Of a stretch of DNA of 64,000 nt, positions 3,346-57,902 are shown piece after piece. Position 1 is the first letter of the stretch. The number at the start of each line of letters is the position of its first letter. The notes beneath the pieces are model-generated. The model made no database searches and had not been told where the DNA came from. It worked only from the letters and a program-made list of their open reading frames with translations. A program made the position numbers and the translations under genes. Origin of the DNA: Thermoanaerobaculia bacterium (GTDB taxonomy: Bacteria > Acidobacteriota > Thermoanaerobaculia > Multivoradales > J023); the NCBI GenBank assembly GCA_028066595.1, contig JALCBJ010000025.1, positions 1 to 64,000 of the forward strand, written 5' to 3'.

Positions 3346-3394
3346 CGTTGTCAGTATCCGAGCCGCTACCCCGGGTGGCTGTGTGATGAATATT

Positions 3395-3419
3395 GATCAA
3401 TTTGTCAGATGAATTGATC
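3395..3419. repeat. AT-rich inverted repeat after ffh
   Basis: GATCAATT at 3395-3402 and its exact complement AATTGATC at 3412-3419 flank a nine-base loop. Further TTGATC/GATTTGATC words lie just downstream. There is no T-tract, so it is a poor intrinsic terminator and could instead be a protein-binding site. The function is unproven. Confidence 0.4.
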
Positions 3420-3629
3420 TGATCCAGTGATTTGATCTTGCTTCCTGTTTCTGGTGCAGGTAACTTCTGGATATACCAAGTCGACGCCTCGGAGGAGATC
3501 AGCTCTTCGCACTGACTGACGAAGTTTCGCAGTCGGAACGTTGAATGATCGCTGCTGCATCGCCTTGCGAGGCACCGCTCTCGACACCGGTCGAAGGTGT
3601 GCAATTTGCCTCGGTGCATAGGTGTGCCC

Positions 3630-3645
3630 TGGCAAGTCGGTTGCG
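3630..3645 (+). promoter_or_regulatory. Sigma-54 (RpoN) -24/-12 promoter of the pilus operon
   Basis: The sequence TGGCAAGTCGGTTGCG matches the sigma-54 consensus TGGCAC-N5-TTGC at nine of ten defined positions, with the invariant GG (3631-3632) and GC (3643-3644) separated by the required ten bases. Transcription would start near 3655, about 70 bases ahead of the PilV-like start codon at 3727. Sigma-54 control of pilin genes is known in Pseudomonas (PilR) and Myxococcus, which supports the reading. No enhancer site was identified. Confidence 0.7.
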
Positions 3646-3726
3646 AATCGCCTGACACTTCTGTCGATGAGCACAGGAGATGGATCAGGCCTCGAGACCC
3701 GCGGTCTAGACACCAGGAGATGAGAG

Positions 3727-4326
3727 ATGCGACGTGAGCGGGCTGAAGACAGACGAACTCAGCGAGGTATGTCGGTGGTCGAAGTGCTCGTGGCCGCCTC
3801 GCTCCTTTTGACTGTCGCAGTAGGAATCCTTGCTTTGCTGACCCGCTCGCTGCAGAACAACACCCGTGGTTGGGAGGCTACTCAGACGTCGAACCATGCC
3901 CGGACTGCTCTCGATCAGCGCCTCGGCGAGGCGCTTACCGCGCCCGGGTTGGAAATCGCCGCTGGATCGAATGAAAGAAAAAACGAGCTCTTCTGGTCCG
4001 GAGGCTCGAACGTTCTCGACAACGACGACGAGGAAGGTTGGTACGACTCGGAGTCGGAGGCGGCGGGAACCGTTTTCGTCCGGAGAACCGAGATCGTCAG
4101 GCAGTACAACGTCCGGTCGCTATTGGGCGAGAGCAGCGGGCTGAACGATGAGGGTGAGTATGTCTTCGAGCTCGAGCGAGAGCGCATCGACACCCCTCTG
4201 TCCGGTGACGTGGAGCCGAGATTCGTCCACATCAAGCGCATCGAGGTGACGATCGAGGGTCGTAGACAGGGTGGAGCTCTGGGGGCTGGGCAGCGGTTGA
4301 AGTCCGAAACCTACAAGTCCTTCTGA
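3727..4326 (+). CDS. Type IV pilus minor pilin, PilV-like
   Basis: A 199-residue prepilin. The leader MRRERAEDRRTQRG is followed by the class III cleavage context G|MSVVEVLVAASLL, with Glu at mature position 5 and a hydrophobic N-terminal helix of about 20 residues. The remaining soluble part is acidic and has no strongly recognisable fold. AGGAGA lies seven bases before the start. It is the first gene of a tight set of five, and its neighbours (PilW-, PilX- and PilY1-like) make a PilV role likely. It should be processed by the prepilin peptidase PilD and prime pilus assembly with the other minor pilins. Confidence 0.85.
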   Translation: MRRERAEDRRTQRGMSVVEVLVAASLLLTVAVGILALLTRSLQNNTRGWEATQTSNHARTALDQRLGEALTAPGLEIAAGSNERKNELFWSGGSNVLDNDDEEGWYDSESEAAGTVFVRRTEIVRQYNVRSLLGESSGLNDEGEYVFELERERIDTPLSGDVEPRFVHIKRIEVTIEGRRQGGALGAGQRLKSETYKSF

Positions 4327-4329
4327 TCG

Positions 4330-5616
4330 ATGGACGCGCTCCCGTTGGATCCTCGCAATCGCTGCCGCCATCTCGCCCTCGGACGGGTCAGTCGGGGCTA
4401 CTCCCTGATCGAGCTCCTCGTCGCTCTGGCGATGATGGTGGTCGTGCTGATCGCAGCGCTCGTGCTGCTCGACACGACGAACCGTGCGACTCGGACACAG
4501 GTCTCCAGGGCAGACGTCCAGCACTCGCTACGCCTCGCGCAGGGCGAGATTGCCGGCAAGGTCCGGATGGCCGGCCGAGGCGGTTTGCTCGCCGCGACCA
4601 CGTCTCGACCCTGGCCGGATGGAGTCGCCTTGGAGGTCGACAACAACGTCGAGGACGACCGTACTCTCTTTCCCTCGGATCTGAATAGCCCGAAGATCAA
4701 GGAAGGAACCGACGTCCTCGTAGTACGCGGTTCCTTTGACCTCCCGCTCTACTATCTGAACCCTCTCGATTCGAGCCGATTTCAGTTCGACCCGGCGCGG
4801 GGTGTCGGCTCGGTGATCGTTCCTCGCAGAACACCGAATGGGGGCTTCGTCCAGGACCTCGAGCTCTTGGCCGAGCTGCGGTCCGACGCCCGTGAGGCCG
4901 AGGCGATTGTGGTCGTGAGCCCGTTCGACGACGACGTTTACGGTGTGGCGCTGATCGATTGGTCTGCTTCGAGGTTCGACCCGGGGAGTGACACGTTTCG
5001 TCTCGGCTTCACGTTCGAAGACGATCCAGCGGCGATCGATCCGCGAAATCCCGACAACGTCCTGCATGCGGCGTCGGCCCTATCGAGCGGCGGCGCGTTT
5101 CCTCGGGAGCTGTTCCGAGCAGGATTCAAGACGCTTGGCATTCTCGAGGAACACCGTTACTTCGTCCGCGATCCATCAGACGAGTCCGGCGCAAGCTTGG
5201 GAAGTCAGCCGAAGCTCAGCGTCGTCCGAACGCTCCTCAACCGAGACGAATACTGGCACGAGAACCCTGCAAGGCCGTACTCGGAGCCTTGGGAAGACGT
5301 CGTCGACGGAATCTCCGACCTCCAGATCGCGCTCGGTTTTGCCGATCCGGAGAGCGGCGAGGTGACGGAGACCACAGACGGCGCCGATGACCTTTGGTTC
5401 TTGAATCATCCCGCCGAATCGGTTCCCGAGGGAGATCTGACTTTGGTGCGAATCACGACATTGGCTCGATCTGCTGCTCCTGATCGCAACAGCGAGGCGA
5501 AGGTACTCCTGCGGCTCGAAGACCGAAGCTACACGGATGAGGACATCAACTCTCCCGTCGAGCGCAAGTACCGGCGGTTCTTCCTGCCTACGGTCGTCAG
5601 CCTTCGCAACCTCTGA
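4330..5616 (+). CDS. Type IV pilus minor pilin, PilW-like
   Basis: A 428-residue prepilin starting three bases after the preceding stop. The basic leader of 23 residues ends in the cleavage context G|YSLIELLVALAMM, with Glu at mature position 5, followed by a hydrophobic helix to about residue 45. The large C-terminal part is long for a pilin, which is typical of PilW proteins, and is rich in Asp and Arg. It probably sits in the pilus priming complex together with the PilV-, PilX- and PilY1-like products encoded beside it. Assignment as PilW rests on size, position and the N-terminal motif, not on a detailed match. Confidence 0.85.
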   Translation: MDALPLDPRNRCRHLALGRVSRGYSLIELLVALAMMVVVLIAALVLLDTTNRATRTQVSRADVQHSLRLAQGEIAGKVRMAGRGGLLAATTSRPWPDGVALEVDNNVEDDRTLFPSDLNSPKIKEGTDVLVVRGSFDLPLYYLNPLDSSRFQFDPARGVGSVIVPRRTPNGGFVQDLELLAELRSDAREAEAIVVVSPFDDDVYGVALIDWSASRFDPGSDTFRLGFTFEDDPAAIDPRNPDNVLHAASALSSGGAFPRELFRAGFKTLGILEEHRYFVRDPSDESGASLGSQPKLSVVRTLLNRDEYWHENPARPYSEPWEDVVDGISDLQIALGFADPESGEVTETTDGADDLWFLNHPAESVPEGDLTLVRITTLARSAAPDRNSEAKVLLRLEDRSYTDEDINSPVERKYRRFFLPTVVSLRNL

Positions 5617-5628
5617 TCGGAGAGTCCT

Positions 5629-6234
5629 ATGCCGAAGAAGCCCCCACAGCCTGGCCGGAACCTGAAGTCTCCTGGTTCCGGATTTCCTCCGACGGAGCGT
5701 CGGTACCATCGGGGCAACGCGTATCTGGTCACCGTGATGGTGATGATCATCGTGATGCTCTTGGGTCTGTCGCTCGGAACCGTCACCCAGACCGAGATGC
5801 TGATCGGCTCCAGAGAGAGGAACCATCAGCGCATGTTCTACCTGGCCGAAGGAGGGCTTCATCTGGCGGTCGCTCGCCTGCTGGTGAGCGCAGATCCGAG
5901 AGCGGCGCGCCTGGAGTGGGTACTACCGCCAGCCTATGACTTCACCTCGGAGGGTGGTTCTCGAGGTCTTTCGCTTCGCGGCGTGGTACGGCTGGCACCC
6001 GTCAAATCACCGTCCGCCTTGCCATGTCAATTGTGTAGCCAAGGCGCTCTCGAATATCAGACCGACTGGCAGACGGTTCGTCTGCCGGTCACGGTACGGG
6101 GCGAGATGGAGAGCGAGGGCGGTCGGTCCTTGGCGCGACGGCGAGTCAGCTCGTTGCTCGACGTCATGCCATGGAGCGGCGAGCTGTCGGTCACCGGACC
6201 CGACCTACGCGACGCCGACATCGAGTTCAACTGA
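5629..6234 (+). CDS. Type IV pilus assembly protein, PilX-like
   Basis: A 201-residue protein with a basic N-terminus, one membrane helix (residues about 32-52, AYLVTVMVMIIVMLLGLSLG) and the PilX N-terminal-domain phrase GSRERNHQRMFYLAEGGLHL, in which a conserved FYLAE-type segment follows the helix. A classical G|xxxxE cleavage motif is absent, as in many PilX/GspK-like proteins. GGAGAG precedes the ATG. It lies 12 bases after the PilW-like gene and ends exactly where the PilY1-like frame begins, so translation is probably coupled. Two cysteines (PCQLCSQ, residues about 130) could form a disulfide. Confidence 0.85.
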   Translation: MPKKPPQPGRNLKSPGSGFPPTERRYHRGNAYLVTVMVMIIVMLLGLSLGTVTQTEMLIGSRERNHQRMFYLAEGGLHLAVARLLVSADPRAARLEWVLPPAYDFTSEGGSRGLSLRGVVRLAPVKSPSALPCQLCSQGALEYQTDWQTVRLPVTVRGEMESEGGRSLARRRVSSLLDVMPWSGELSVTGPDLRDADIEFN

Positions 6235-9200
6235 GTGGCGTCGCTGGCCGAATCTCTCCTAGGTCCGATGAGCCGATTCCATCGTTCTTCTGTCGTTCGC
6301 TTTCCTCTGCTGCCGGTTCCGATATCCGGGTGGGTAGCCGTCGCCTGCTTTGTCTGCATTCTGGGGTCGTGGGTGCTGGGGTCGTCTGTAGCGAGGGCTG
6401 ACGATACCGAGTTACTGCGCGCGAACAGCAGCAACCCGTTTCTGTTCATCTTGTTGGACAATTCGCGATCCATGGCGGCATCTCTCGACGACCGCTGGGT
6501 TCATGCCGGTGCGGATGATCCGCGGTCACGCCTGTACATCGCCAAAGAGATCCTCTACGAAGAGCTCGGCAGCTTGAGCACCGTGCGTTACGGCCTCGCG
6601 ACCCTCGACCAGGACGAGGTTCGGGTCGTGTCCAAGCACTATCTCTATTTCGTCGCCGACACGCCCGCCAATGTCGAAGCCATGGCCGGAATCCCCGGAG
6701 CCCTGAATGGTTACCCGGCGCTCGAGCCCGGGAACCAGATCGAGTCGCTGCAGACCGACGATGCGACCGGCTCTGATGGGAGGGTGGTCGAAATCGATGG
6801 GGATCTCCTGACTCTCGGACGGACGTTTCCGTTTGATGGCTCGGGCCGGCAGACGCCTTCTGGAGGCACGTGCATCGATCCACTCGATCTGGCGACGGAA
6901 CGTGAAGCGATCAATCGCTATCCGAAATTCGGTGAGGCTGGCCGCGACACCGTCACGATGTGGATCGAGGGGAACACCGGTGTCGTCTTTCGTCTCCGCT
7001 GGCAGCGACCCTCAGGCGCTGCCTGGCGTTTGGGTGATGACCACATCGAGGTGCGGCTTCAGGTTGCGGAGGTCGGCGGCTGTAGTCCCGAGGCGATCGG
7101 TCCCGAGTTGGACCTCGAGCTCGAGCTTCGGCTGTGGAAGCCGTTCCTCTGGGTCGACGACGCCCACGGTGCCAGTTTCACCGCTGCTGGTGATGACGGA
7201 CGCTGCGGCGGAGTGAATGCCATCGAGAAGGCCGGCGGTTTCTGGAGTCTCGCTCCTCTGGACGTCGATAGCGCGGGGAGGTGTTCGAACAAGCCGTTTT
7301 CTGGCCAGGGTTGGGAAGGCAACTACGACACCGGGCAACCCTTCACGACCAACCCAGGTTACGAACGTTCTCTGTCCTCGGGTCTCGGGAGCTTCGACAG
7401 CTACTGCGACAGCGCGTCCTCGAATGCAACCGGGTGTGTGAATCTCAAGCACCCCACAACCTATTCGACGGATCCGGACGTACGAGAGGCCGACGTCGGC
7501 GACCTGGTGCCGTTCCACTGGGGCTCGACTCACCACGCGACCCTGTTGTCGCGTCTCAATCCGAATCACGGGATCGGAGCCGATGATTTCGGCGTTGCGC
7601 GCTACTTTGGCGATACCTTGCGGGAAGGGGCCGGATCTCTCGGGTTGGTCTCGAGCTCCAGAAGGCCTATTCTGGCGGCTGGAAACAGCCCGATCGGGGC
7701 TGCAGTAAGGGATTTTCGCTGCTGGTTCGTGGGCGAGGAGTCCGACGAGTGTCGCCGGAACGGTTCGTTTCAGGTGTCGTACGGTCGCGGCCTTCTTCCG
7801 CTTCTGCGGGAGCGCGACTCTGGTCTATGGACCTGTCGCCGTCCGTTCCTGATCGTGATAACCGATCTCTACGGGAACTGTACCCAGGATGACGACGTGG
7901 CCCGCGTCGCCGGTATGTTCCGAGAGACCGGCGAGTCGGGACTGCAGAACGGTGTCAGCACCTGGTTGCTCAACATGGGTCAGAGTCGTTGCGGTGGTCT
8001 GTCCAATGCCGGGACGGGCAGGGTCATCGATATCGAAAGCAGATCGGAGTTTCGCCATGTTCTGCGCCAGATCCTGGGTGAGGTCGAAGAGACGTCTCGA
8101 ACGTTCGCTGCAGCCGCCGTACCGGCAGCGCAAGCCGACGTAAAGGACAAGATCTACTTTTCCCGGTTCACGCCCCTGCACGACAAGGGTGTTTGGCCGG
8201 GTGAGCTACTGGCGTTCAGGAAACCGGTACCGACCCGGGAGATCCCAGGCCTGGACGGCGCGACCCACTCGGTGCCGGACGAGGATCGGAGCGTTTGGGA
8301 CGCGGGACGCGAGATGTTGGTGCAGTCGCCGGATCCCGGCTCGCTGGCAGGGCCTTACTCCACCCGCTCCGATCTGAGAATCGGTGCCGGTAGCACCGAA
8401 AGGCGGGTCTACTACATGGTCGAGCCTCGACTCTGGAACTACTTTGCGCCGGTTTCCGGAAGTCTCACAACGCTCGACCGCAGTGAAACCTACTCAGAGA
8501 ACGACTTACGCAACGACATGTGGGAGGCCATGGGGCTCGTCGATCGTGGACCTCTAACGGGGGAGACTCTGCACGACATCCAGTCGAGCAATGCCCTCGA
8601 CGGATACTTGAGATCGGCACACTCGACGCTCCGGTACTCCTTGGTCGAGAAGCGGGCTCTGGACAGCGCGGGACGGACTCTGCGCAACTTCGTCCTCGGC
8701 GACATGTTCCACTCCTCACCTCGGTTGATGGGGAGTCCGTCCAACTCGCGCTACCTGGCCGATCCCGAGAGCTTTCCCGGATACGAGGAGTTCTCGGCGC
8801 GCCATGAGAAGCGACGGAGAATGCTATTCGTCGGCGCCAACGATGGAATGTTGCACGCCTTCGATGCGGGTCGATGGCAAGGGAGTCTGAGCGAGGGTGA
8901 GTTCGACGATGGCAGCGGTCGAGAGATCTTCGGCTACGTGCCCCGCGAAGCGGTCCGGGGTCTCCGGGCCTTGAGCGAGAACCGAGAAGATCACCGTTGG
9001 TTCGTGGACGGAACGCCGCAGATCGCCGACGTTTGGATCGATGTCTCCGGAGATGGAGCGAGGGAGTGGCGTACCATCCTTTTCGGTGGCATGCGACGGG
9101 GCGGCAGAACCGTCTTCGCACTCGACGTCACCCAGCCCGATCCGGTGCGGGAAGTGACCCGCGATCTGGGCGGTACGACGGTGACGATGGGCTACCTACC

Positions 9201-10659
9201 GACGCGGAACGAGATCGTCCCGTCGTGTTGGGATGATCACGTGGCCCTCGAGTCGGGCGTTCGAATACCGAACGACGGCGATTGCGACGCTCTTCCGTTC
9301 GGTACCCCGCTCTGGGAGATCACTGATTCCAGCGACGACGACGAGAGCGGCAAGGCCGATATGGGCGAGAGCTGGTCTTCGGTCGAGGTCGGTCCGATCC
9401 GCATCCGCAACCGACTCGGGGATAGCGATCGCGAGGAACTCCGTTGGGTCGCCATCTTCGGCGGGGGATTCGATCCCGACGGGGCGACGGACCATGGTCA
9501 GGGCAACTGGCTCTACATGGCGGACATCGAGAGTGGCGAGATCATCTACAAGCGCCGACTAGGAGCCGAAGGGTCGGTAGCCGCCCCTCCGAAGGCACTC
9601 GACACCGACCTCGATGGGGTCCTCGATCGTGTCTACGTCGCTACGACCCACGGGCAGCTGTGGCGCCTCGACATGAGCACTGTGCCTCGCCTGGTAGACG
9701 TAGATAGGAAGTGCCCCAAGGCTGCCTACGAAGGCGTGTGTATCGACGAAGATCACACCTCATGGGATCCGGTTCTCTTCTTCGACAGCTTGACCCAGGA
9801 ATCCGATGACCAAGGCAACCCGGTTGCGCAAAGGCGTCCCTTTTTCTTCGCACCGACGGCGTTCTACGTCGGTCAATTGGGTGGGTTCGGCATCGCTGTG
9901 GGTACCGGCAACCGGGATGACCTTTGGGCTTCGGGACCGCGTGGCGGCAATCGGTTCTACGTTTTCGCCGACGAGGTCTGTAGCAGCTCCACGGGCGACA
10001 CGAGTCGCTGCCTTCCAACGTCGGACCTACCGCTATACGAGAGTGACCTGGTGGACGTCACGGGCGGCGGTGCCGCGTGCGGCAACGAGGTGGTGACGGA
10101 CATCGATCAGCGGGAGACGGGAAAACGGGGGTGGTACCTTCGGCTCGGTCAGGTACCTGTAACCGCTTCGGGTGGCGAGGGTTCAGCGGACACTATCTTC
10201 GATGCTGCCGACGAGCGGGTGGTGAGCCCGGCCCTGACTCTCTCCGGTTTGACAGTCTTCAATACCTACGTTCCCGAGACCATGCGAACCCAGGCCTCTG
10301 ATGGTCCGCGCTGTACCCGCCGCGGGATGGGTCGCAGCTATCTTCTCTATACGGCCAGCGGCTGCGCTCTCGATATCCAGGAGTCCGACACTCTGGTCGG
10401 CGATGTATTCGTGGATCGAAACGTGACGGGTGAAAATGATCCGACGCAAGACACTGGCGCCGATGGGGAATCGGCGGCGGATCCTTGCATTGGAAACGAG
10501 GCGTTGCATCAGGAGATTCGGGACACCCTCTTTCCCAGTACATGCCGTTTCTCTGAGCTCCTCCGCTACCCCCTATTGGTCAATCGAAGCGACACTGGGG
10601 TAAAGTGCCTGGTAGAGATGCCGTTGTGCATCCAGCAGAAGAACTGGAAGGAGTTCTGA
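6235..10659 (+). CDS. PilY1-like pilus tip adhesin/assembly protein with VWA-like motif
   Basis: A 1474-residue secreted protein. The frame can start with GTG at 6235, directly after the PilX-like stop, or with ATG at 6268; both keep a long signal peptide ending near VARA (residue about 55). Soon after comes a metal-ion-dependent-adhesion-type motif DNSRSM (residues 75-80), as in the VWA domain of PilY1. The C-terminal half is the PilY1 beta-propeller: MLFVGANDGMLHAFDAG from residue about 863 and a calcium-loop DTDLDGVLD at 1123-1131 followed by the blade phrase VYVATTHGQLWRLDM. PilY1 proteins sit at the pilus tip, bind calcium and control extension, retraction and surface adhesion. Larger than Pseudomonas PilY1 (about 1160). 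Confidence 0.92.
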   Translation: MASLAESLLGPMSRFHRSSVVRFPLLPVPISGWVAVACFVCILGSWVLGSSVARADDTELLRANSSNPFLFILLDNSRSMAASLDDRWVHAGADDPRSRLYIAKEILYEELGSLSTVRYGLATLDQDEVRVVSKHYLYFVADTPANVEAMAGIPGALNGYPALEPGNQIESLQTDDATGSDGRVVEIDGDLLTLGRTFPFDGSGRQTPSGGTCIDPLDLATEREAINRYPKFGEAGRDTVTMWIEGNTGVVFRLRWQRPSGAAWRLGDDHIEVRLQVAEVGGCSPEAIGPELDLELELRLWKPFLWVDDAHGASFTAAGDDGRCGGVNAIEKAGGFWSLAPLDVDSAGRCSNKPFSGQGWEGNYDTGQPFTTNPGYERSLSSGLGSFDSYCDSASSNATGCVNLKHPTTYSTDPDVREADVGDLVPFHWGSTHHATLLSRLNPNHGIGADDFGVARYFGDTLREGAGSLGLVSSSRRPILAAGNSPIGAAVRDFRCWFVGEESDECRRNGSFQVSYGRGLLPLLRERDSGLWTCRRPFLIVITDLYGNCTQDDDVARVAGMFRETGESGLQNGVSTWLLNMGQSRCGGLSNAGTGRVIDIESRSEFRHVLRQILGEVEETSRTFAAAAVPAAQADVKDKIYFSRFTPLHDKGVWPGELLAFRKPVPTREIPGLDGATHSVPDEDRSVWDAGREMLVQSPDPGSLAGPYSTRSDLRIGAGSTERRVYYMVEPRLWNYFAPVSGSLTTLDRSETYSENDLRNDMWEAMGLVDRGPLTGETLHDIQSSNALDGYLRSAHSTLRYSLVEKRALDSAGRTLRNFVLGDMFHSSPRLMGSPSNSRYLADPESFPGYEEFSARHEKRRRMLFVGANDGMLHAFDAGRWQGSLSEGEFDDGSGREIFGYVPREAVRGLRALSENREDHRWFVDGTPQIADVWIDVSGDGAREWRTILFGGMRRGGRTVFALDVTQPDPVREVTRDLGGTTVTMGYLPTRNEIVPSCWDDHVALESGVRIPNDGDCDALPFGTPLWEITDSSDDDESGKADMGESWSSVEVGPIRIRNRLGDSDREELRWVAIFGGGFDPDGATDHGQGNWLYMADIESGEIIYKRRLGAEGSVAAPPKALDTDLDGVLDRVYVATTHGQLWRLDMSTVPRLVDVDRKCPKAAYEGVCIDEDHTSWDPVLFFDSLTQESDDQGNPVAQRRPFFFAPTAFYVGQLGGFGIAVGTGNRDDLWASGPRGGNRFYVFADEVCSSSTGDTSRCLPTSDLPLYESDLVDVTGGGAACGNEVVTDIDQRETGKRGWYLRLGQVPVTASGGEGSADTIFDAADERVVSPALTLSGLTVFNTYVPETMRTQASDGPRCTRRGMGRSYLLYTASGCALDIQESDTLVGDVFVDRNVTGENDPTQDTGADGESAADPCIGNEALHQEIRDTLFPSTCRFSELLRYPLLVNRSDTGVKCLVEMPLCIQQKNWKEF

Positions 10660-10660
10660 T

Positions 10661-11353
10661 TTGACCCCATCCGGACCGAACCGTACGCCGAGTATCCGTC
10701 TTGTATTGATCCTGTTTGTAGCTCTCCTGTCGCTGCCGGCGACGGCCGATTGGCTGGTGATGGAAGATGGCTCGCGGCTGGAAACCCGTGGCCCGTGGTC
10801 CGTTGACGGACGGCGAGTGATTTTCACGCAGGCCAACGGTACTTTGTCCGCACTGCGTACACGCGAAGTCGATCTGACGGCGAGTGAGGCGTTGACCGAG
10901 GCACGGGAGCGGGCTGCGGAAGCTGCGAGAGCCGAACCGCCCGCCGAGGCCCGACCCGAGCCGCGCTGGGTGTTCACGAACCGAGACATCCCGACGGCTT
11001 CCCCGGTGGTGCAAGAAGAGCTAGAGATCGAGCCTCTGGTAGGAGCCGAGGGCTTCACCTTACGTAGCGTGGAAGAGAGGGTCGACGCGACTGGCAACAA
11101 CTTGGTGGTGCGAGGGGTTCTGATCAACGATGCTGACATCGCCGCCTCTCTGGTCGCCGTCCGGGTGTCGATCCTTTCTCCGGTCGACGGCGGCACCCTC
11201 GATGTTGTGCAGGCGATCGTCTCGCACCCGGATCTCTTGCCCAACTCGGCGACCCGCTTCACTGCCAGCTTCGATGACCTGTCGCCGGGGTTCGGCCTCG
11301 TCCAGGTCGAGGTGGAAGTGTTGGACGGGTCGAACCGTTCCAGAGTCGGCTAG
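10661..11353 (+). CDS. Secreted FxLYD-like protein ending the pilus operon
   Basis: A 230-residue protein starting with TTG at 10661, chosen because GGAAGGAG lies seven bases upstream inside the end of the PilY1-like gene. It has a signal peptide (LVLILFVALLSLPATA) and then a short segment, WLVMEDGSRLETRGPW, that looks like the small DUF-type sheet domain found after many acidobacterial signal peptides. An Ala/Glu-rich linker (residues about 72-108) follows. The C-terminal 110 residues (NNLVVRGVLINDADIAASLV and following) read like an FxLYD beta-sandwich. It probably acts in the periplasm or at the cell surface together with the pilus tip protein. No enzymatic motif is seen. Confidence 0.75.
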   Translation: MTPSGPNRTPSIRLVLILFVALLSLPATADWLVMEDGSRLETRGPWSVDGRRVIFTQANGTLSALRTREVDLTASEALTEARERAAEAARAEPPAEARPEPRWVFTNRDIPTASPVVQEELEIEPLVGAEGFTLRSVEERVDATGNNLVVRGVLINDADIAASLVAVRVSILSPVDGGTLDVVQAIVSHPDLLPNSATRFTASFDDLSPGFGLVQVEVEVLDGSNRSRVG

Positions 11354-15674: not shown

Positions 15675-17429
15675 TCAGCCGGCGGAGGAACGTAACGCGA
15701 TGTGAAGACGTAGCATCAGACGTTCGATATCGCCCGGACGTTCGATGTCGACCGTCAACTTGCGGGCTTCGTCCAGCAAAGCACGGTGTTCATCGTCCTC
15801 CACCTGCAGGGTCAAGGAGAATCTGCGGGCTCGCCGTAGCGAATCGCCGAGCGCCAAGTCGAGCTCGCGTCGGACCTCTTGCTGGCCGTTGACCTGTGCC
15901 GCCTTCGCGGCTTTGGGGTCGAGGGTCTGTCGTCGGAGCTCTTCCAACTCGGCCAGGACATCGATGCCACCGCTCTTCCGCTTCTTCTTCCGCCCCGGTG
16001 GGGAAGCGGCTGGCGCCGGTTTCGGCTGTGCTTTGCTGGGCTCGGGAGCTGGTGCGGCGGTAGCTGCCTTGGACGCCGCAGTCTTGGCGGCGGGCGGCGC
16101 AGCAGGTTCCGGCGCAGTCCGCGCGGGCGTAGCCGGCTCCGGTGCGGCTTGCGCTGGCTCTGGTGTTGTCTTCGCAGGGGCAGCCTGCTCTGATGCTGTC
16201 GGCTTTGGCGAGACGGCCTCAGGCGCGGCCGGCTCAGGCGCGGCCGGCTCAGGCGCGGCCGGCTCAGGCGCGGCCAGCTCAGGCGCGGCCGGCTCTGATG
16301 GGGCGGGCTCTGGAACGGATTGCGCAGGCGCGGCCGGCTCCGGGTCGTCCGTCTCGAACTCCACCGGTTCGAGTTCCGGAGGCGCTTCGATCGCCAGCTC
16401 TTCTACCTTCTCTGCCTCTTCGGCTTTTTGCGCCTCGGGCTTGGCAGCGTCAGGCTTGGCAGCGTCGCCTGTTGTCGGATCCATGCCGACGGCGGTGCCG
16501 GTCGTCTTGAGCCCTGCAGCGGCGGCCACCTCGGGGTCGATTTCCACCGACTCGAGCTCGCCTGCACTGGCTTTGGCCTCCGAGACGGACTCAGCCGCCG
16601 CCGCAGCCTTCTCGACGGGCGCAACGGCAGCTGGCGGTTCCGCTTCTTTGGCCTTGGCTTCCGCGGCCGCTGGTGTTTTCGTTTGCTCCGTCTCCGTTTC
16701 GGCTTTTGCGGCCTGATCCCCTTTCGGCGGCGGCGCTGCAGGCATAGGGGAACCACTCTTCCGTGGCGGAGGTGCCGCGGGCATCGGGCGTCCCGGTGCA
16801 GCAGCGGGCTTGGGCTTGGATGTACTCTCGCCCCGGCCCTTGGTCATGCGGTTCTTCAGCGCGATGAGCGTTGCCTTGGAGATCGTCTTGAGAGTCTCGA
16901 AGACACCGTCTCCGTTCAAGGCGGAGGCTTCTACAGCTGGCCACCCACCCTTGTTCAACGACTCGTCTAGCTCTTCGACCGAGAGGATGTTGGGCAGATC
17001 GCGTTTGTTGTACTGAAGCACCACCGGGATGGTCTCCAGGTCGAGCCCCATCTCCGCTAGGTTCTCCTCGAGATTCTCGAACGATTCGACATTGGCGTTG
17101 AGCATCGGCCGCTGCGAGTCGGCGACGAAGACCACGCCATCGACCCCTTTCAGCACGAGTTTCCGGGTCGTGTTGTAAAACACCTGACCCGGTACGGTGT
17201 AGAGCTGGATCCGCGTGGTGAAACCCGCGATCTTGCCCACATCGATCGGCAGGAGATCGAAGAAGAGGGTTCGATCCGTCTCGGTCGCCAAAGACACCAT
17301 CTCGCCACGGGAGTCGTTGCCCGTATGGTCGTAGATGTACTGCAGATTGGTCGTCTTGCCGCACAGACCCGGGCCGTAGTACACGACCTTCGCGTGCATC
17401 TGCATGGTGCTGTAGTTGAAGAAGACCAT
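15675..17429 (-). CDS. MglA-like small GTPase with long Pro/Ala/Glu-rich tail
   Basis: A 584-residue protein. Residues 1 to about 195 are a MglA-type Ras-like GTPase: G1 YYGPGLCGKTTN (about 17-28), G3 region TVPGQVFYNTTR with the MglA-typical PGQ in place of DxxGQ, and G4 NKRD. Classic MglA proteins stop here (about 195 residues). A 280-residue low-complexity stretch follows, rich in Ala, Pro, Glu and Lys, with tandem PEPAA units. It ends in a Lys/Arg patch (RKKKRKSGG) and a helical, charged C-terminal region (about 490-584, GIDVLAELEELRRQTLDPKA). MglA sets polarity of type IV pili and gliding machinery in Myxococcus. No MglB roadblock partner is adjacent. Confidence 0.88.
   Translation of the reverse strand: MVFFNYSTMQMHAKVVYYGPGLCGKTTNLQYIYDHTGNDSRGEMVSLATETDRTLFFDLLPIDVGKIAGFTTRIQLYTVPGQVFYNTTRKLVLKGVDGVVFVADSQRPMLNANVESFENLEENLAEMGLDLETIPVVLQYNKRDLPNILSVEELDESLNKGGWPAVEASALNGDGVFETLKTISKATLIALKNRMTKGRGESTSKPKPAAAPGRPMPAAPPPRKSGSPMPAAPPPKGDQAAKAETETEQTKTPAAAEAKAKEAEPPAAVAPVEKAAAAAESVSEAKASAGELESVEIDPEVAAAAGLKTTGTAVGMDPTTGDAAKPDAAKPEAQKAEEAEKVEELAIEAPPELEPVEFETDDPEPAAPAQSVPEPAPSEPAAPELAAPEPAAPEPAAPEPAAPEAVSPKPTASEQAAPAKTTPEPAQAAPEPATPARTAPEPAAPPAAKTAASKAATAAPAPEPSKAQPKPAPAASPPGRKKKRKSGGIDVLAELEELRRQTLDPKAAKAAQVNGQQEVRRELDLALGDSLRRARRFSLTLQVEDDEHRALLDEARKLTVDIERPGDIERLMLRLHIALRSSAG
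16216..16290. repeat. 15-bp tandem repeat in the MglA-like gene tail
   Basis: Five near-identical copies of the 15-base unit GGCTCAGGCGCGGCC in phase at 16216-16230 (first base variants), 16231-16245, 16246-16260, 16261-16275 and 16276-16290 (AGCTCAGG variant). On the minus strand each encodes APEPA. The unit keeps the frame. Degenerate Ala/Pro/Glu units extend to both sides. Confidence 0.85.
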
Positions 17430-47706: not shown

Positions 47707-48043
47707 GCTGATCGCGCACCTAGCCGCTCATTCGATTGGATCCATCGTTCTGTATCCGTTCAGTGGATTGGATCCCAGGCGTGCTCCGCGGACTCTCGTA
47801 GAGCTGCGAAACCGACGAAAACGTCGATCCATCAAGGTTTTTCTCGCGCCTCGGTGTTTGGATTCAAAAATCTGAGTCGTGGCATGGAACCTGCTAGTTC
47901 TCTTCGAGATGGCTGAGTCGGTTCGAAGCCAGTCTTCGGACTCATCTTCGAGTACTGGATCGGCTTATCGACGATCTGTTTCCACATCTCTTTTCAGGTT
48001 CGACCGCGGGGTGGCAACACCTCCCAACCCCTTTTTCTAGTTC
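47707..48043. other. Intergenic region upstream of the histidine kinase
   Basis: A 337-base gap. GATTGGATCC occurs twice in direct orientation (47734-47743 and 47766-47775), each containing the palindrome GGATCC. Nothing else is recognised. A sigma-54 signal was looked for and not found; no ORF of interest is present. Confidence 0.45.
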
Positions 48044-50911
48044 ATGTCGAAACGCCGAATCGCCTTTCTCGGCCTCGCGCTTTTTCTGACGGTCCTCCTC
48101 GCCGGATTCGCGGGTACGTCGTTCGAACGCCGTCTCACTTCGTTCGAGCCGCTCGGTGTCGAGGTCACCCAGAAAGAGAACGCGTGGCAGGTGGAGTCGG
48201 TGACCGTGGAGTCCACAGGTCTCCTCGCCGGCGACCAGATCCTGACAGTCGAGGGAGAGACGCCGCGCAATCTCGAAGAGCTTCGCAGCTCGCTGCGGGC
48301 CCGTCCGGAAGCGGGATTGCTGGTCGTGCGCGGTCAGGAGCTCGTCGAGGTCGCCTACGCGCGGCCAGGCCTGCAGATCGGCTGGTCCTATCTCGTCGTT
48401 GCCCTGATCGGCGTCTTCTACCTGGTGGTGGGTTTGATCACGGCGCTCAAGGACCACAACCTGCATGCGCGGCTGTTCTTCTTCTGGTGCTGGACGAGCG
48501 CAGCCCTTTACATCCTGAGCCCGGTCATGCCGCCGGTGACGGCCGGCGACGAGTGGATCTTCGCCTTCGATCAGCTGGCACGTCTGCTGCTGCCAGCCTT
48601 GACTCTGCATCTCTTCCTGACCTTTCCTACGCGGCTGAGCTCGAACCCGTGGCTCGGTCGGGTGATCCCGGCGCTCTACGTGCCTTCGGCCTTTTTCGGC
48701 CTCTACCACTTCGAGCAGATTCCGCGTTTCTCACTGAGCGGCGGCCGGTTGTTCGGTCCGGTCACCGACGCCCAGTTGCTCCTCGTCGACCGACTGGAGC
48801 TGTTGTGGCTACTGGTCTGCGTCGTCCTATCCATCGGAGTCGTCGCGCTACGCTTCCGCCGCAGCTCGGGTTGGGAGCACAGACGTCAAACCCAGTGGAT
48901 TCTGACGGGCTTGTTGGCGGGCTACGCGCCGTTCACGGTCCTCTATCTGGTTCCATTCGCCCTCGGACTGCGCTGGCCGGAATGGACCTCGGTGCTCGCG
49001 GTGTTGCCGTTGGCCCTAGTGCCGCTGGCGTTCGCCTGGGCCATTCTCAAGTACAAGCTCCTAGACCTCGACGTCATTCTTCGGGATGTGGTGTCGTGGA
49101 CTGCAACGGGAATGGTCGGCATTTTCGGCTTCGAGCTGGTACACCTCGTAATCCAAGCCAACGTGCCCGCGGAGCAGGCGCTCGGGCGGAACGTCTTGAC
49201 GTTTGCGGCTGGGCTCACACTCGCCGCAGTACTGATCCCTACGCGCCGCACGCTGGCGGATCGCCTGGAATCCTGGCAGCACGGTGGACGTATCGGACCT
49301 CGGCGCCAGCTGCGTGGGCTTGGACACGAGTTGCTTTTCCAGCGCAACCTCGACCGCCTTTGCGCCGACCTGATCGAAGGCCTCGAGGACGCCTTGGTGG
49401 CCCGGGCCAATCTCTACTTGGTACAGGGGAGCGAGGGCTTGGCGCCGGTGAAGTTGCCACCGCAGGATCAGCAGAGCGCGTCCGGCACATGGAATAGTGC
49501 ACCGTCTACGAAGAGAGATTCGGGCGACGAGGGAATACCCCGTTTTCTTGGTTTCGATGATCTGGGTGGTGATCTGTGGAACCGCGATGTCGAATCGATT
49601 TCGGCGATACAGCTGTCGACGGAGCAGCTGAGCGCGTCACAGCGCCTCTTTCTAGCCGGCTTTCGGTATGCCTTTCCCATGACCGTTCGTGGACACCGGA
49701 TCGGGGTGTTGGTCATGGGCTACAAATTCGATGACGAGCCGTTGGCTGGGGAGGACATCGACCTGGTAACCAGCGTCCTCGATCGAGCAGCTCTGGCCAT
49801 CGAGAACGCGCAGTTGCTCGAAGAGGTGCACCTCCGACTCGACGAGGTGCAGCAGCTGGAGTCGTACAACGAGGGGATTCTGGAATCGACACCGGCGGGG
49901 ATCGCCGTGCTCGATGACGGCGATACGGTAATTTCCGTCAACCACGCCTTCGCAGCGCTCTGTGGCTTCGAGCGACCCCGAGCTGTCGGTCGCAACATCG
50001 CAGATCTTCTCCCGGTTCGGCCGCTTCCCAAGTCGGGGGAGGGGTTAGTGGAGGTGGCTTGGTGCGAGCCGTCGGGCGCAGAGCGCTATATGCAGCTCTC
50101 TGTCGCGAGCTGGTCGGATTCCGGAGATGACGGTGGTCGCCGCGTTTTGGTGGCTCAGGATGTGTCTGCTCGCGTCACCATGGAACTGGAACTGAAGGAG
50201 AAGGAGCACCTCGCCTCTCTCGGCGTTTTGGCCGCGGGCGTGGCGCACGAAGTCAACACGCCGCTCACCGGCATCTCTTCCTACGCTCAGTTTCTCCTCG
50301 CCGACACGCCCGAGGACGATCCGCATTTCGCCATCCTCAAGAAAATGGAGCGGCAGACCTTCCGCGCTGCGCAGATCGTCAACAACCTGCTCGACTTCGC
50401 CCGGAATCGTCACGGTGAAACCTCCAAGGTGGACTTCGCCTGCCTGATCGGAGATTGTTTGCACCTGCTCGAGGAGCGAGCCGATCGGGTAGGGGTCGAC
50501 ATCGACTACTCGCGTCCGGACGGGGAGTACGATGTCCTGGGTAACGAGAGCGAGCTGCACCAGGTGATCACCAACCTGGTGGTGAACGCGTTCGAAGCGA
50601 TGGCCAACCAGGACGAGGCACGACTCGTTCGTCTGCGGGTCGATCGTCATGTACATCGAATACGCCTTCGTATCTCAGACACTGGGCCCGGTGTAGCCGG
50701 GGAGCGGCTCGACAGCATCTTCAAACCGTTCTTTTCCAGCAAGCTGGAACAGGGAGGTTCCGGTCTGGGTTTGGCGATCACTTACAACATCGTGCGGCGG
50801 CACGGTGGTGAGGTGTCCGTGGAAAACCACGAAGGCAAGCGTGGTTGTACCTTCACGGTGGAGCTCCCTCAACACGCTCCCGAAATCACGGACGCCGGGG
50901 CGGCTCGATGA
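48044..50911 (+). CDS. Membrane histidine kinase with PDZ-like, GAF and PAS domains
   Basis: A 955-residue sensor kinase. Order: membrane anchor (about 8-26), a PDZ-like segment (about 30-100, STGLLAGDQILTVEGETPRN), some nine membrane helices (115 to about 395), a GAF domain (about 430-600), a PAS domain (about 625-715, ESTPAGIAVLDDGDTVISVN), HisKA with the phospho-His in GVAHEVNTPLTG (His 735), and HATPase_c (N box HQVITNLVVNAFEA, G1 DTGPG, G2 GSGLGL). The H box is of the NtrB type, fitting the NtrC-type regulator whose start overlaps its stop (ATGA). It probably senses an envelope signal and phosphorylates that regulator. Confidence 0.92.
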   Translation: MSKRRIAFLGLALFLTVLLAGFAGTSFERRLTSFEPLGVEVTQKENAWQVESVTVESTGLLAGDQILTVEGETPRNLEELRSSLRARPEAGLLVVRGQELVEVAYARPGLQIGWSYLVVALIGVFYLVVGLITALKDHNLHARLFFFWCWTSAALYILSPVMPPVTAGDEWIFAFDQLARLLLPALTLHLFLTFPTRLSSNPWLGRVIPALYVPSAFFGLYHFEQIPRFSLSGGRLFGPVTDAQLLLVDRLELLWLLVCVVLSIGVVALRFRRSSGWEHRRQTQWILTGLLAGYAPFTVLYLVPFALGLRWPEWTSVLAVLPLALVPLAFAWAILKYKLLDLDVILRDVVSWTATGMVGIFGFELVHLVIQANVPAEQALGRNVLTFAAGLTLAAVLIPTRRTLADRLESWQHGGRIGPRRQLRGLGHELLFQRNLDRLCADLIEGLEDALVARANLYLVQGSEGLAPVKLPPQDQQSASGTWNSAPSTKRDSGDEGIPRFLGFDDLGGDLWNRDVESISAIQLSTEQLSASQRLFLAGFRYAFPMTVRGHRIGVLVMGYKFDDEPLAGEDIDLVTSVLDRAALAIENAQLLEEVHLRLDEVQQLESYNEGILESTPAGIAVLDDGDTVISVNHAFAALCGFERPRAVGRNIADLLPVRPLPKSGEGLVEVAWCEPSGAERYMQLSVASWSDSGDDGGRRVLVAQDVSARVTMELELKEKEHLASLGVLAAGVAHEVNTPLTGISSYAQFLLADTPEDDPHFAILKKMERQTFRAAQIVNNLLDFARNRHGETSKVDFACLIGDCLHLLEERADRVGVDIDYSRPDGEYDVLGNESELHQVITNLVVNAFEAMANQDEARLVRLRVDRHVHRIRLRISDTGPGVAGERLDSIFKPFFSSKLEQGGSGLGLAITYNIVRRHGGEVSVENHEGKRGCTFTVELPQHAPEITDAGAAR

Positions 50912-52287
50912 ACATCCTGATCGTCGATGACGAGGAGGTTCTGCAGGACGTCCTCACTTCGCTCGTGCGCAAGGAAGGCTGGAATCCTCTCAGCGCTCGA
51001 ACCGGCGAAGCAGCGTTGGAGATCCTCGACCAGGAGAGCGTCGATCTGGTTCTCCTCGATCTCATGTTGCCGAAGATGTCGGGCATGGAGGTGCTCAAGC
51101 AGATTCGGCAACGTCAGCCGGACCAGGTCGTGGTGATCATCACGGCCTACTCTTCGATCGAAGGTGCGATCGAAGCCATGCGCGAAGGTGCCTTCCACTA
51201 CATTCCCAAGCCGTTCAAGAACGAAGAAGTCCTGCTCACGATCCGCAACGGCTTGGAGCGGCGACAGCTGGCCGACGAAAACAAGGCACTGAAGCGCCAA
51301 CTCCAGAAACGGTACGGTTTCGACAGCATCATCGGCAAGTCGAAACCAATGCAGCAGGTATTCGAGTTGGTGGAGCTGGCGGCGCCGTCCAAGTCCAACA
51401 TCTTGATCCTGGGAGAAAGCGGTACCGGGAAGGAGCTGGTGGCCAAAGCGATCCATCACCATTCGCGGCGCGCAGACGGGCCCTTCGTCACGGTGAATTC
51501 CGGTTCCATGCCCCACGATTTGCTGGAATCGAATCTCTTCGGCCATGTCAAAGGCGCGTTCACCGGAGCCGTCAGCTCCAAGAAGGGCCTGTTCGAAGCC
51601 GCGGCCGGCGGCACCATCTTCTTCGACGAGATCGGCAATATCCCTCTCGAGACGCAGGCGAAGTTGCTACGCGTCGTACAGGAACGGGAGTTCATGCGCC
51701 TCGGGGGCGTCGACGTGATCAAGGCCGATGTTCGCATCGTCGCCGCCACCAACGCCGATCTGGAGGAGATGGTCGGCGAGACGAGGTTCCGCGAGGATCT
51801 CTACTATCGTCTGGCGGTGATCAGTATCGGCCTACCGCCGCTCCATCGCCGCACGGAGGACATTCCGCTGCTGGCCCGGCATTTCTTGAGCAAGTATGCC
51901 CAGGAGAACGAGAAGGAGATCTCCGACATCTCGCCACCGGCGATGGAGATGCTCCTCGACTACGGATGGCCCGGCAACGTACGCGAGCTCGAGAACGTCA
52001 TCGAGCGCGCCGTGGTGCTTTCGACAGGCGAGGAGCTCGACGTCGATCTCTTGCCCCACAATGTGCGCGAACCCAAGGCACAGGCGACACCGCCACCGGA
52101 GCTGCCCACCAACGGACAGAGCTTCAAGGATGCGGTGTCGGCCTACGAGCGAGCTCTGATCGTCAAGGCATTGCGCTCCACCGGTGGAGTACAGAAACGA
52201 GCGGCCGAGCTCTTGAAAGTCAAGCCGACGACTCTGCACGAAATGATGAAGCGGCTCGAGATCTCGACCGACGCCTTGGATCTATAG
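50908..52287 (+). CDS. NtrC-family sigma-54-dependent response regulator
   Basis: A 459-residue regulator starting at ATG 50908 within the kinase stop (ATGA overlap). The receiver domain has Asp 51 (VDLVLLDLMLPKMSG) as phosphorylation site. The AAA+ domain has Walker A GESGTGKE (about 169-176), the sigma-54 contact loop GAFTGA (216-221) and GGTIFFDEIGN Walker B. The Fis-type HTH is near the C-terminus (QKRAAELLKVKPTTLHEMMK). It activates sigma-54 promoters from enhancer sites; the strong sigma-54 promoter of the minor-pilin operon in this window is a candidate target, as in PilS-PilR systems. Confidence 0.95.
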   Translation: MNILIVDDEEVLQDVLTSLVRKEGWNPLSARTGEAALEILDQESVDLVLLDLMLPKMSGMEVLKQIRQRQPDQVVVIITAYSSIEGAIEAMREGAFHYIPKPFKNEEVLLTIRNGLERRQLADENKALKRQLQKRYGFDSIIGKSKPMQQVFELVELAAPSKSNILILGESGTGKELVAKAIHHHSRRADGPFVTVNSGSMPHDLLESNLFGHVKGAFTGAVSSKKGLFEAAAGGTIFFDEIGNIPLETQAKLLRVVQEREFMRLGGVDVIKADVRIVAATNADLEEMVGETRFREDLYYRLAVISIGLPPLHRRTEDIPLLARHFLSKYAQENEKEISDISPPAMEMLLDYGWPGNVRELENVIERAVVLSTGEELDVDLLPHNVREPKAQATPPPELPTNGQSFKDAVSAYERALIVKALRSTGGVQKRAAELLKVKPTTLHEMMKRLEISTDALDL

Positions 52288-55063: not shown

Positions 55064-55552
55064 ATGAGTCCTCGCGTCCCGAAGAGCTGTCGTGAGAAGG
55101 CCCTGGATTTGCTGGCACGGCGGTCGCACTTCCGTCGCGAGCTCGAGCGCAAGCTGACGCGACGTGGCTATGACGAATTCGAGATCGAAGAGACGCTGGA
55201 GCGTCTGACCCAAGGTGGGTGGTTGGATGATGTTCGGACCGCCGAAGAGTTCGTCGCTACACGCCTCCGTCGTGGTCCGGTCGGTCCGGCGAAGCTCCGT
55301 ACCGAGCTCAGAGCCCGAGGCGTAGACGACGACGATGCGCGTCGAGTGGTGGCCGCGGCGCAGCCGAATGGTGATCTAGAGCTCGCACGCACCGCTGCGG
55401 AGGGCAAGGTTCGGCACGCGCCCGACGTCATGGACACGGAGACGCTCCACAAACTGCTACGTTCGGTCGCCCGTCATCTCCAGGGCAAGGGCTTCTCTGG
55501 CGAGAGCATCGGTCGGGTCGTCGACGAGGTGCGCCACCGGCTCGAGCCCTGA
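55064..55552 (+). CDS. recX: Regulatory protein RecX
   Basis: A 162-residue RecX. Three helix-triplet repeats are recognisable: DLLARRSHFRRELERKLTRR, LERLTQGGWLDDVRTAEEFV and the third with KLLRSVARHLQGKGFSGESI. RecX inhibits RecA filament activity. recA is not adjacent, so it is an orphan in this window. The final 79 bases (55474-55552) are covered on the other strand by the 3' end of the glycosyltransferase gene. The N-terminus has a good ATG but no strong ribosome site. Confidence 0.9.
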   Translation: MSPRVPKSCREKALDLLARRSHFRRELERKLTRRGYDEFEIEETLERLTQGGWLDDVRTAEEFVATRLRRGPVGPAKLRTELRARGVDDDDARRVVAAAQPNGDLELARTAAEGKVRHAPDVMDTETLHKLLRSVARHLQGKGFSGESIGRVVDEVRHRLEP

Positions 55553-56661
55553 GCTTTGGGCCGATCCTCCTGGAGGAGCCTGCTCAGGAGAGCCGCCGTC
55601 CGTGGCACGATCTCGTCCCGGTTGTAGTGCCGTCGCACGTGGTCCCAACCCCGCATCCCGATCCCTTGTCGTAGGTGGAGATCGTCGAGTAACTTGCGAA
55701 TGGCCGAGAACCACTCCAGTTCCGATCGGGCCAGGAATCCCGTGTTACCTCCGCGTACGATGTCTCGGTTGACACCCACCGGGGAGGCGACGCACGGCAG
55801 AGCGTGTGACATGTACTGGAGCAACTTGAACCCACACTTCCCTCGTGACCACGTGTCGTCAGTGAGAGGCATGAGACCGATGTCAGCCGATGCCAGGGCC
55901 GGGGTTTCGACCTGCTCTGACCATGGGATCCACTCGATGTTTGCCTCTGGCCAGGGGGGTGGTTGCGAGCAGATCACCCGTAGTTTGAGATCAGGGTAGA
56001 GCTGCTGCAGCTCGGTCAGCGGTCGGCGGATCAGCTCGAGGTACTTGAGATTCTCCGGCATCCCGATCCAGACCAACGTCCGACCGGTCCCTTTCTTCTC
56101 TCCAACGGGGAGCAGGTCGATCGACGTCGGGATCGTTTCGACCCAATTCGAATGCTCCCGAGATGCGCTGGCCAGCTGCTCGTTGCCGGCCAAGACGAGG
56201 TGGGCCAAACGGCAGGTATGACGGAACTTGATTCGCCGAAGGGAGGAACGATCTGGCTCGGACTCGAGTCTGGCGGCCTGGCGGACATAGATGGCGTCGT
56301 CGAAGTCGAACACGATCCGAGTCGGAAGAGTGGTCAGCAGGAGCGGTTCACCGAGTCCGAGCTTGATCTTCGCGAGCACCAGCACGTCGGTCTGGGCGAG
56401 CTCCCGTCGGCGTCTCAGGATTCGACGGAAGTAACGCCCCTTCGCGATTTCTTCGACCCGGCAGCGCCAGCCCTGATCGGCGAGCAGAGCGAGCAACGGA
56501 CGATGTCGATGGCGGAAGGAAGGTGAACGAGCGTCGTAGGTCCAGAAGAGAATCCGTGGAGGTCGTGGTGTCCGCTGCGACCGCTTCCAGGAGGGCGTAA
56601 CGGGCGGGTCCGGTCTGGGAACGGCGGTGACGGTACGTCCAGCAGGCCGACGGTGGCTCAT
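55474..56661 (-). CDS. GT4-type glycosyltransferase
   Basis: A 395-residue protein with a two-domain GT-B look: N-terminal segment PRILFWTYDARSPSFRHRHR and a C-terminal domain with RTLVWIGMPENLKYLELI and DIGLMPLTDDTWSRGKCGFK then LLQYMSHALPCVASPVGVNR, equivalent to the donor-binding E-x7-E region of GT4 enzymes. The last 26 codons lie antisense to recX and look like a read-through of its sequence, so the true end of the functional domain is near residue 365. The sugar and acceptor are unknown. The N-terminal 35 residues before PRILFW may include a wrong upstream start. Confidence 0.85.
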   Translation of the reverse strand: MSHRRPAGRTVTAVPRPDPPVTPSWKRSQRTPRPPRILFWTYDARSPSFRHRHRPLLALLADQGWRCRVEEIAKGRYFRRILRRRRELAQTDVLVLAKIKLGLGEPLLLTTLPTRIVFDFDDAIYVRQAARLESEPDRSSLRRIKFRHTCRLAHLVLAGNEQLASASREHSNWVETIPTSIDLLPVGEKKGTGRTLVWIGMPENLKYLELIRRPLTELQQLYPDLKLRVICSQPPPWPEANIEWIPWSEQVETPALASADIGLMPLTDDTWSRGKCGFKLLQYMSHALPCVASPVGVNRDIVRGGNTGFLARSELEWFSAIRKLLDDLHLRQGIGMRGWDHVRRHYNRDEIVPRTAALLSRLLQEDRPKAQGSSRWRTSSTTRPMLSPEKPLPWR

Positions 56662-57041
56662 GGGGGGCTCCTTTGCTTGCTGAATTGCTCAATCCAGGGA
56701 ACCCGAAGCAAGTGGAGAGCCACTCGGGACGAACGGGGCCCGCGGGCGCCTCTACGGGGACAGAACCGCGTCGTTCTGGTACGACCTGACGGCTACAGCT
56801 GGGATGCATCTTCGATTCGCATCGCGCACCACCGGCAGTGTCCTCGCGGTCCGACAGAGTGTCCGTTGCACGCGACGCCGGAACACGTCAGCATCTCGTT
56901 TCGATACTCGGGTCGACGACAAGGACTACCTAGCCTTGGCTCGAGACTCCGATAAAACCGCTCGGTTTCCTGTGTCGTTCGGCTAAGCCAAGTCAATTCA
57001 AGAGCTTAGGGCGACCGGCCGGGCGCTCATCCGCTGGACGA
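56662..57041. other. Intergenic region between a glycosyltransferase and a lytic transglycosylase
   Basis: A 380-base gap between two divergently oriented genes. I looked for a c-di-AMP (ydaO) riboswitch, which often precedes lytic transglycosylases, but its conserved blocks were not found. A segment GATAAAACCGCTCGGTTTCC (56950-56969) can form a short hairpin. No other recognised signal or credible small ORF. Confidence 0.45.
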
Positions 57042-57902
57042 ATGGCATGGCCTGCGGATAAACTCGTAAGTCTGATGGGCCTTTTGTCAACCGACCTACC
57101 TGGAAGCGTCCGTCGATCCGTTCGGGTCGGCCGGTCGATCTCGTCCATCGGGGTTGGTTGGGTCCTTCTGTGCACGGCGACCCTTACAGCGTGGGCCAAT
57201 GACCGGGCCCCGATGCCGGTGGCCGATACGGACGTGCGGGGCAGCGTCAAGGTGAAGACGCTGGGTGACGGAACCCGGGTGATCTTCAATGAGAACCGCC
57301 AGCAGCGAGCCCGTCGCACATCCCTGACGCTCACGAAACCTCCCCGTGATTCGGGTCTCGAATCCAAGATCGCGCGCTATGCGCGAGCTCAGGGACTCTC
57401 TCCACGGCTCGTCCAGGCGGTGGTGCAGGTGGAGTCCGGCTACAATCCCAGAGCCCTTTCGAATAAGGGCGCCATGGGGCTCATGCAGCTCATGCCGGCC
57501 ACTGCTCGCGAGATGGGCGTGACGGACGCCTACGACCCGGATCAGAATCTGCGTGGTGGCACGCGATACCTTTGGCAGCAGATTCGGCGCCACAAGGGCG
57601 ATCTGGAGCTGGCTCTGGCTGCGTACAACGCCGGGCCGACGGCGGTGGCTCGCTACGGTGGCGTGCCGCCTTACGACGAGACCCGCCGCTACATCGCCAA
57701 GGTCATCAGCCTGTACCAGAACTCACCGCCACCGGATTGGTTGCGTGCAGACGCACGCGCACAGGCGGTTGATCGGCGCATTGCTACGGCGGAAACGCTG
57801 GCCAAAGAGAACAAGACGCGTGCGGGCCAAAAGGTCTACCTCACGCGCGACGAGTCTGGGCGTATCGTGATGACCACGACGCCACCTCCCGATTCCCGGT
57901 AG
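57042..57902 (+). CDS. Lytic transglycosylase (SLT family) with flanking small domains
   Basis: A 286-residue protein; starts at 57042 or 57075 are both possible. A hydrophobic segment (about 33-50, SSIGVGWVLLCTATLTAW) is the export signal. The SLT domain (about 103-225) has the catalytic Glu 131 in VVQVESGYNPRALSN, followed by KGAMGLMQLMPATA and AYNAGPTAVARYGG. It cleaves the beta-1,4 link between MurNAc and GlcNAc in peptidoglycan, forming 1,6-anhydro ends. On either side are DUF4124-like patches (VKVKTLGDGTRVIFNE and QKVYLTRDESGRIVMTTT), which may form a small sheet domain. pgsA follows at 120 bases. Confidence 0.9.
   Translation: MAWPADKLVSLMGLLSTDLPGSVRRSVRVGRSISSIGVGWVLLCTATLTAWANDRAPMPVADTDVRGSVKVKTLGDGTRVIFNENRQQRARRTSLTLTKPPRDSGLESKIARYARAQGLSPRLVQAVVQVESGYNPRALSNKGAMGLMQLMPATAREMGVTDAYDPDQNLRGGTRYLWQQIRRHKGDLELALAAYNAGPTAVARYGGVPPYDETRRYIAKVISLYQNSPPPDWLRADARAQAVDRRIATAETLAKENKTRAGQKVYLTRDESGRIVMTTTPPPDSR

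Follow-up and report, generated by a model that had tools for sequence, protein, structure and literature searches.

A plausible sigma-54 promoter ahead of a Thermoanaerobaculia minor-pilin operon whose dedicated regulator appears to have been lost

Minor pilins and PilY1 prime the assembly of type IV pili and form the pilus tip. In a Thermoanaerobaculia bacterium, an operon of this kind is preceded by a sequence resembling the -24/-12 promoters of sigma-54 (RpoN), and an NtrC-type activator with its kinase is encoded in the same 64,000-nucleotide stretch of DNA (the window), which is part of a 7.5-Mb draft genome (G000). This arrangement raises the question of whether the sequence is a functional promoter and which activator would serve it. 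The initial annotation had pointed to Pseudomonas as a precedent for sigma-54 control of pilin genes by PilS-PilR; this stands for pilA, which is driven by PilSR and RpoN, but not for the minor pilins of P. aeruginosa, where AlgR binds and directly activates fimU-pilVWXY1Y2E (PMC4064291). Several minor-pilin genes are nonetheless changed in a pilR mutant (PMC6058289), and in commensal Neisseria RpoN acts with Nps-Npa to control pilE (PMC6528607). In a search of largely open-access literature, we found no report connecting sigma-54 with type IV pili or pilus promoters in Acidobacteria.

Within the window, ffh ends at position 3345 and is followed, after 381 nt, by a pilV-like gene and four further genes, all on the plus strand. 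The region contains the following features:

3346..3629, plus strand: intergenic region between ffh and pilV, without GTTAC-N5-GTAAC and with no significant match to the repeats of the pilA and kinase operons
3630..3645, plus strand: -24/-12 element of sigma-54 type, TGGCAAGTCGGTTGCG, ahead of the minor-pilin operon
3727..4326, plus strand: minor prepilin resembling PilV, encoded first in the operon (prepilin motif GMSVVEVL; tblastn similarity to PilV-position genes of relatives)
4330..5616, plus strand: PilW minor prepilin (Pfam PF16074 and PF07963, N_methyl)
5629..6234, plus strand: PilX-like minor prepilin (Pfam PF14341, PilX_N)
6235..10659, plus strand: PilY1 (Pfam PF05567; groups with G001:C25 in a tree)
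10661..11353, plus strand: protein (DUF) of about 230 amino acids (tblastn matches to L205, L207, L208, L210 and others, at 31-52% identity)

The operon had been read as one of minor-pilin type, and the Pfam matches for PilW, PilX_N and PilY1, together with the prepilin motif in the first open reading frame, bear this out; that first frame itself has no Pfam match. The 230-residue protein matches nothing in Pfam or NCBIfam; it is found repeatedly behind pilY1 in the clade, as the last gene of the canonical minor-pilin cluster. Elsewhere in the window, at 15675-17429 on the minus strand, we read from the sequence an MglA-like GTPase domain with a long Ala/Pro-rich C-terminal extension.

The promoter-like site was correctly placed by the initial annotation: TGGCAAGTCGGTTGC occupies 3630-3644 on the plus strand and matches nine of the ten defined positions of TGGCAC-N5-TTGC, with exact GG-GC spacing. 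The distance to the first gene, given as 70 bases, is in fact 81 nt, from the end of the site at 3645 to the pilV-like ATG at 3727. Against the longer form TGGCACG-N4-TTGCW the site matches 10 of 12 positions, the two departures being A instead of C at -21 and G instead of A/T at -11; this G also occurs in three repeat-bearing promoters of relatives. To call the promoter 'textbook' was an overstatement, as the motif by itself is within chance: sites with at most two mismatches number 9 in the window where 8.0 are expected, and the 7.5-Mb genome has 55 copies of TGGCA-N6-TTGC, compared to 78 of the reversed pattern. Since there is no genome-wide enrichment over that control, we did not use motif statistics alone as proof. 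The position of the site was assessed with a scoring matrix that is approximate, being modelled on published compilations, and that was the same for all control comparisons. Across 156 kb of the window's genome, equally good sites occur at 0.016 per kb-strand, corresponding to P ~0.002 for any one 120-nt upstream stretch and to P 0.0045 for the 284-nt intergenic part. The position of 3630-3645 is unlikely by chance, although the motif alone is not. No sigma-70-like promoter was seen in the pilV upstream region by a simple scan, which covered this promoter type only.

A palindrome near -100 of the pilV promoter (GACTGACGAAGTTTCGCAGTC, 3514-3534) was dropped, being equalled in 8 of 60 shuffles. 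Just after ffh, at 3384-3440 and some 200 nt upstream of the -24/-12, lies an AT-rich stretch where imperfect palindromes overlap, together with TTGATC/TGATC repeats; it could be an operator. On the minus strand, a -24/-12-like sequence (TGGCTCTCCACTTGCT, 56707-56722) stands 45 nt before a glycosyltransferase-like gene (55474-56661).

Comparison with relatives provides the context in which the site can be judged. The relatives were found with the window's regulator and are MAGs labelled Thermoanaerobaculia and Acidobacteriota; PilW homologues are present in 57 of the 59 genomes of the order. For 60 of their loci, the orientation was set by the first prepilin gene and the 600 nt upstream of it were scanned; with the window, this gave 61 regions in total. 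A -24/-12 score of at least 12 was obtained in 28 of these 61 regions (window included), compared to 2 of 122 controls consisting of reverse-strand and downstream sequence. The relatives' element typically terminates in TTGCT and in most cases precedes the prepilin motif by 38-113 nt. A strong shared motif, TG[GA]CA-N4-tGTTACc-aaa-gGTAACgA, stands upstream of these sites and is essentially an inverted repeat, GTTAC-N5-GTAAC; at 27 loci its distance to the -24 is 87-101 nt, mainly 87-89 and 98-101 with three at 94-96. These distances are phased on the 10.5-bp helical repeat (R 0.61, p 0.0001 against uniform spacing), a requirement for looping from a single face of the helix. A composite pattern (the repeat, 82-104 nt, then GGYAY-N5-TTGC), sought in all 59 whole genomes, gave 14 matches compared to none for its reversed control, and 12 of the 14 stand directly before a prepilin gene; because the motif was derived from the same loci, matches there are expected, and it is the absence elsewhere that is the independent result. 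The composite of GTTAC-N5-GTAAC and -24/-12 is a near-single-target element. An isolated match to the upstream element, scoring 17.5 where the window's next best reaches 11.7, lies at 57563-57586 on the minus strand, opposite a lytic-transglycosylase-like frame (57042-57902); it has no -24/-12 at the right distance and is probably due to chance.

In 20-kb neighbourhoods, the usual cluster of the relatives runs pilA(s)-pilD-kinase-fimT-pilV-pilW-pilX-pilY1-DUF, with a strong -24/-12 before fimT, GTTAC-N5-GTAAC falling in many loci within the last codons of the kinase gene, and often a convergent NtrC-type activator after the DUF gene. A sister genome from the window's genus (G001:C53, L067:1-5201) carries the promoter with its repeat twice, ahead of fimT and again ahead of pilV. 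For the clade, these arrangements lend good support to predicted sigma-54 control of minor-pilin operons. The -24/-12, whose conservation in relatives the initial annotation proposed to check, is conserved for this operon type. It is absent, however, with a best score of 1.3, from G001:C25 in the sister genome, the homologous cluster closest to the window's, and GTTAC-N5-GTAAC is missing before the window's pilV, where the best element score is -3.6 compared to 16.4-33.7 in relatives. The other two repeat types of the clade were likewise not recognised upstream of the pilV site, where all their matches are at shuffle level.

The activators linked to these clusters form one orthologous group, at 58-71% identity among the longer pairs. 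The promoter-plus-repeat module is found in 28 of 33 genomes with a linked activator and in 4 of 21 without (Fisher p 2e-6, uncorrected for phylogeny, 14 of the negatives belonging to one genus). Three of the four exceptions are fragmented assemblies, and the fourth is the window's own genome, by virtue of a match at C140 in the joint scan (element score 10.3 at 40 nt) that we treat as spurious. A strong -24/-12 is likewise missing ahead of the minor pilins in other genomes without the linked activator (f2 and f4 genus g7). In the window's genome, the activator has no ortholog (best match 52%, at C214, a locus without pilin genes), the pilD-linked kinase is missing (best match 32% at an unrelated locus, compared to 45-80% within its family), and the composite of repeat and -24/-12 does not occur. 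An assembly gap is the less likely cause: pilA (72% identity) and pilD, the neighbours of these genes in relatives, persist side by side at C192 and are followed by unrelated genes, so that the loss looks real. The window's genome appears to have lost both the dedicated regulator and its DNA site.

The window's genome has two minor-pilin clusters, in the window and at C140. The PilY1 tree joins the window to G001:C25 (support 100, long branches), apart from the module-bearing G001:C53, and a quick tree of PilW weakly agrees. The idea that the operon is a relocated C53 cluster, both having a promoter-like site directly before pilV, was rejected because of this placement of PilY1 and because the promoter regions align no better than shuffles.

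For the relatives, the observed elements, spacing, gene linkage and co-occurrence are consistent with a mechanism whose remaining steps are drawn from knowledge of the protein families. The kinase next to pilD would probably phosphorylate the dedicated NtrC-type activator, whose gene lies at the opposite end of the cluster; this activator would bind GTTAC-N5-GTAAC some 90-100 nt upstream, loop to the polymerase and open the promoter; and the opened RpoN-polymerase complex would transcribe fimT to pilY1. In the window's genome, which has neither kinase, activator nor repeat, the promoter must need another activator or be inactive. A single rpoN (G000:C148; PF04552) and 33 matches to PF00158, about 25 of them strong, full-length activators, are present. 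We consider it more likely than not that 3630-3645 is a functional -24/-12 promoter for pilV-pilW-pilX-pilY1-DUF, served by another activator. RpoN-RNA polymerase would bind there and begin transcription near 3656, with one of those 25 or so activators acting through an unrecognised site. Sigma-54 control of the window's minor pilins is, in this sense, plausible but orphaned.

The strongest competitor, to which we assign a smaller yet considerable likelihood, is that the element has no function, whether as a chance match or as the relic of a decayed site, the operon being read from some other promoter or through from ffh. Several results count for this explanation: the pattern is no commoner than its reversed control, no recognisable element stands upstream, G001:C25 has no -24/-12, and the cognate activator and kinase are gone. 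The first three also count against our own, as do the lack of a strong -24/-12 in the other genomes without the activator and the G at -11. It must, however, accommodate the low probability of such a match at such a position, and the simple scan offers it no sigma-70-like promoter, within the types it covers.

A further alternative has the activator of the major pilin as the candidate partner. The pilA genes of the clade have a -24/-12 scoring 12-18 in 18 of 19 cases, and many of these promoters carry TGACA-N5-TGTCA or half-sites of it, which may be of the TGTC kind associated with PilR. The pilA of the window's genome retains a strong, near-consensus -24/-12 (TGGCACGAACTCTGCA, L218:9517-9532; G000:C192, ~126516) with TGTCA/TGACA half-sites. 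Major and minor pilins might then be co-regulated in this genome, the pilA activator having taken over the operon, and a poor version of its repeat, TGACGAAGTTTCGCA, does lie 98 nt upstream of the pilV site. That match, however, has 3 mismatches in 10 positions and is equalled somewhere in the region by 144 of 200 shuffles, and we regard a takeover as unlikely.

The other candidate is the two-component pair encoded in the window itself:

47727..47775, plus strand: degenerate TTGGAT/ATCCAA repeats, at the position of ATCCAA-N4-TTGGAT in relatives
47880..47895, plus strand: -24/-12 element TGGCATGGAACCTGCT belonging to the kinase-regulator operon and lying 148 nt upstream of the kinase gene at 48044
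48044..50911, plus strand: histidine kinase (PAS, HisKA and HATPase domain matches)
50908..52287, plus strand: NtrC-type sigma-54 activator (domain matches to receiver, AAA+ with GAFTGA and Fis-type HTH)

The initial annotation rightly recognised an NtrC-type activator and its kinase here, the sigma-54 domain being intact and GAFTGA present. The regulator has matches of 58-77% identity across Acidobacteriota and is only 39% identical to the cluster-linked activator group. Almost every Thermoanaerobaculia locus examined keeps this operon's -24/-12 (TGGCAYG-N4-NTGCT or similar), the site at 47880-47895 is better supported than that at 3630-3645, and the ATCCAA/TTGGAT repeats upstream suggest autoregulation. 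The proposed pairing of 48044-52287 with the pilV promoter, in the manner of PilS-PilR, is unsupported and very improbable. Although this activator is complete and PilR-RpoN pilin control exists in Pseudomonas and Geobacter (PMC6058289, PMC2725144), the two upstream regions share only two 9-mers, near chance level, ATCCAA-N4-TTGGAT is missing before pilV (122 of 200 shuffles are as good), the pair does not adjoin pilus genes in the window, and the cluster-linked activator of relatives is a different protein.

Beyond this locus, the results point to a wider arrangement, the truth of which we consider evenly poised. Around the type IV pilus, Thermoanaerobaculia may run three distinct sigma-54 switches, every one of them with an NtrC-type activator and a palindrome to itself. 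GTTAC-N5-GTAAC would serve the minor pilins together with PilY1, TGACA-N5-TGTCA the major pilin, and ATCCAA-N4-TTGGAT a kinase-regulator pair that occurs class-wide and regulates itself. On this view, the window's genome is a natural loss mutant of the first switch. The PilS-PilR/RpoN systems of P. aeruginosa and Geobacter sulfurreducens are similar in placing a sigma-54 promoter and an NtrC-type two-component activator at type IV pilus genes, and the clade's pilA likewise has a -24/-12; in contrast, the clade's minor-pilin operon has a separate activator and a separate repeat, and the window regulator does not adjoin pilA and goes with a third repeat type. FimS(AlgZ)-AlgR of P. aeruginosa is comparable as a two-component system, apart from the pilA regulator, that directly activates the minor-pilin operon, but AlgR is of LytTR type and has different sites, whereas the clade's activator is of NtrC type and predicted to be sigma-54-dependent. 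Nps-Npa/RpoN of commensal Neisseria resembles the clade in combining RpoN and a two-component pair at a pilin gene, related species using a different sigma factor; it concerns the major pilin rather than a minor-pilin operon, and belongs to another phylum.

The window offers a caution, in that a good-looking promoter can outlast its regulator and the nearest activator need not be its partner. The defined DNA element makes the minor-pilin regulon searchable and testable. Where Pseudomonas separates the control of major and minor pilins by AlgR, sigma-54 with a cluster-encoded activator is predicted to do so across families of an uncultured acidobacterial order. If the minor pilins do have a dedicated switch, apart from that of the major pilin, then pilus number or adhesion could be set independently of pilin supply.
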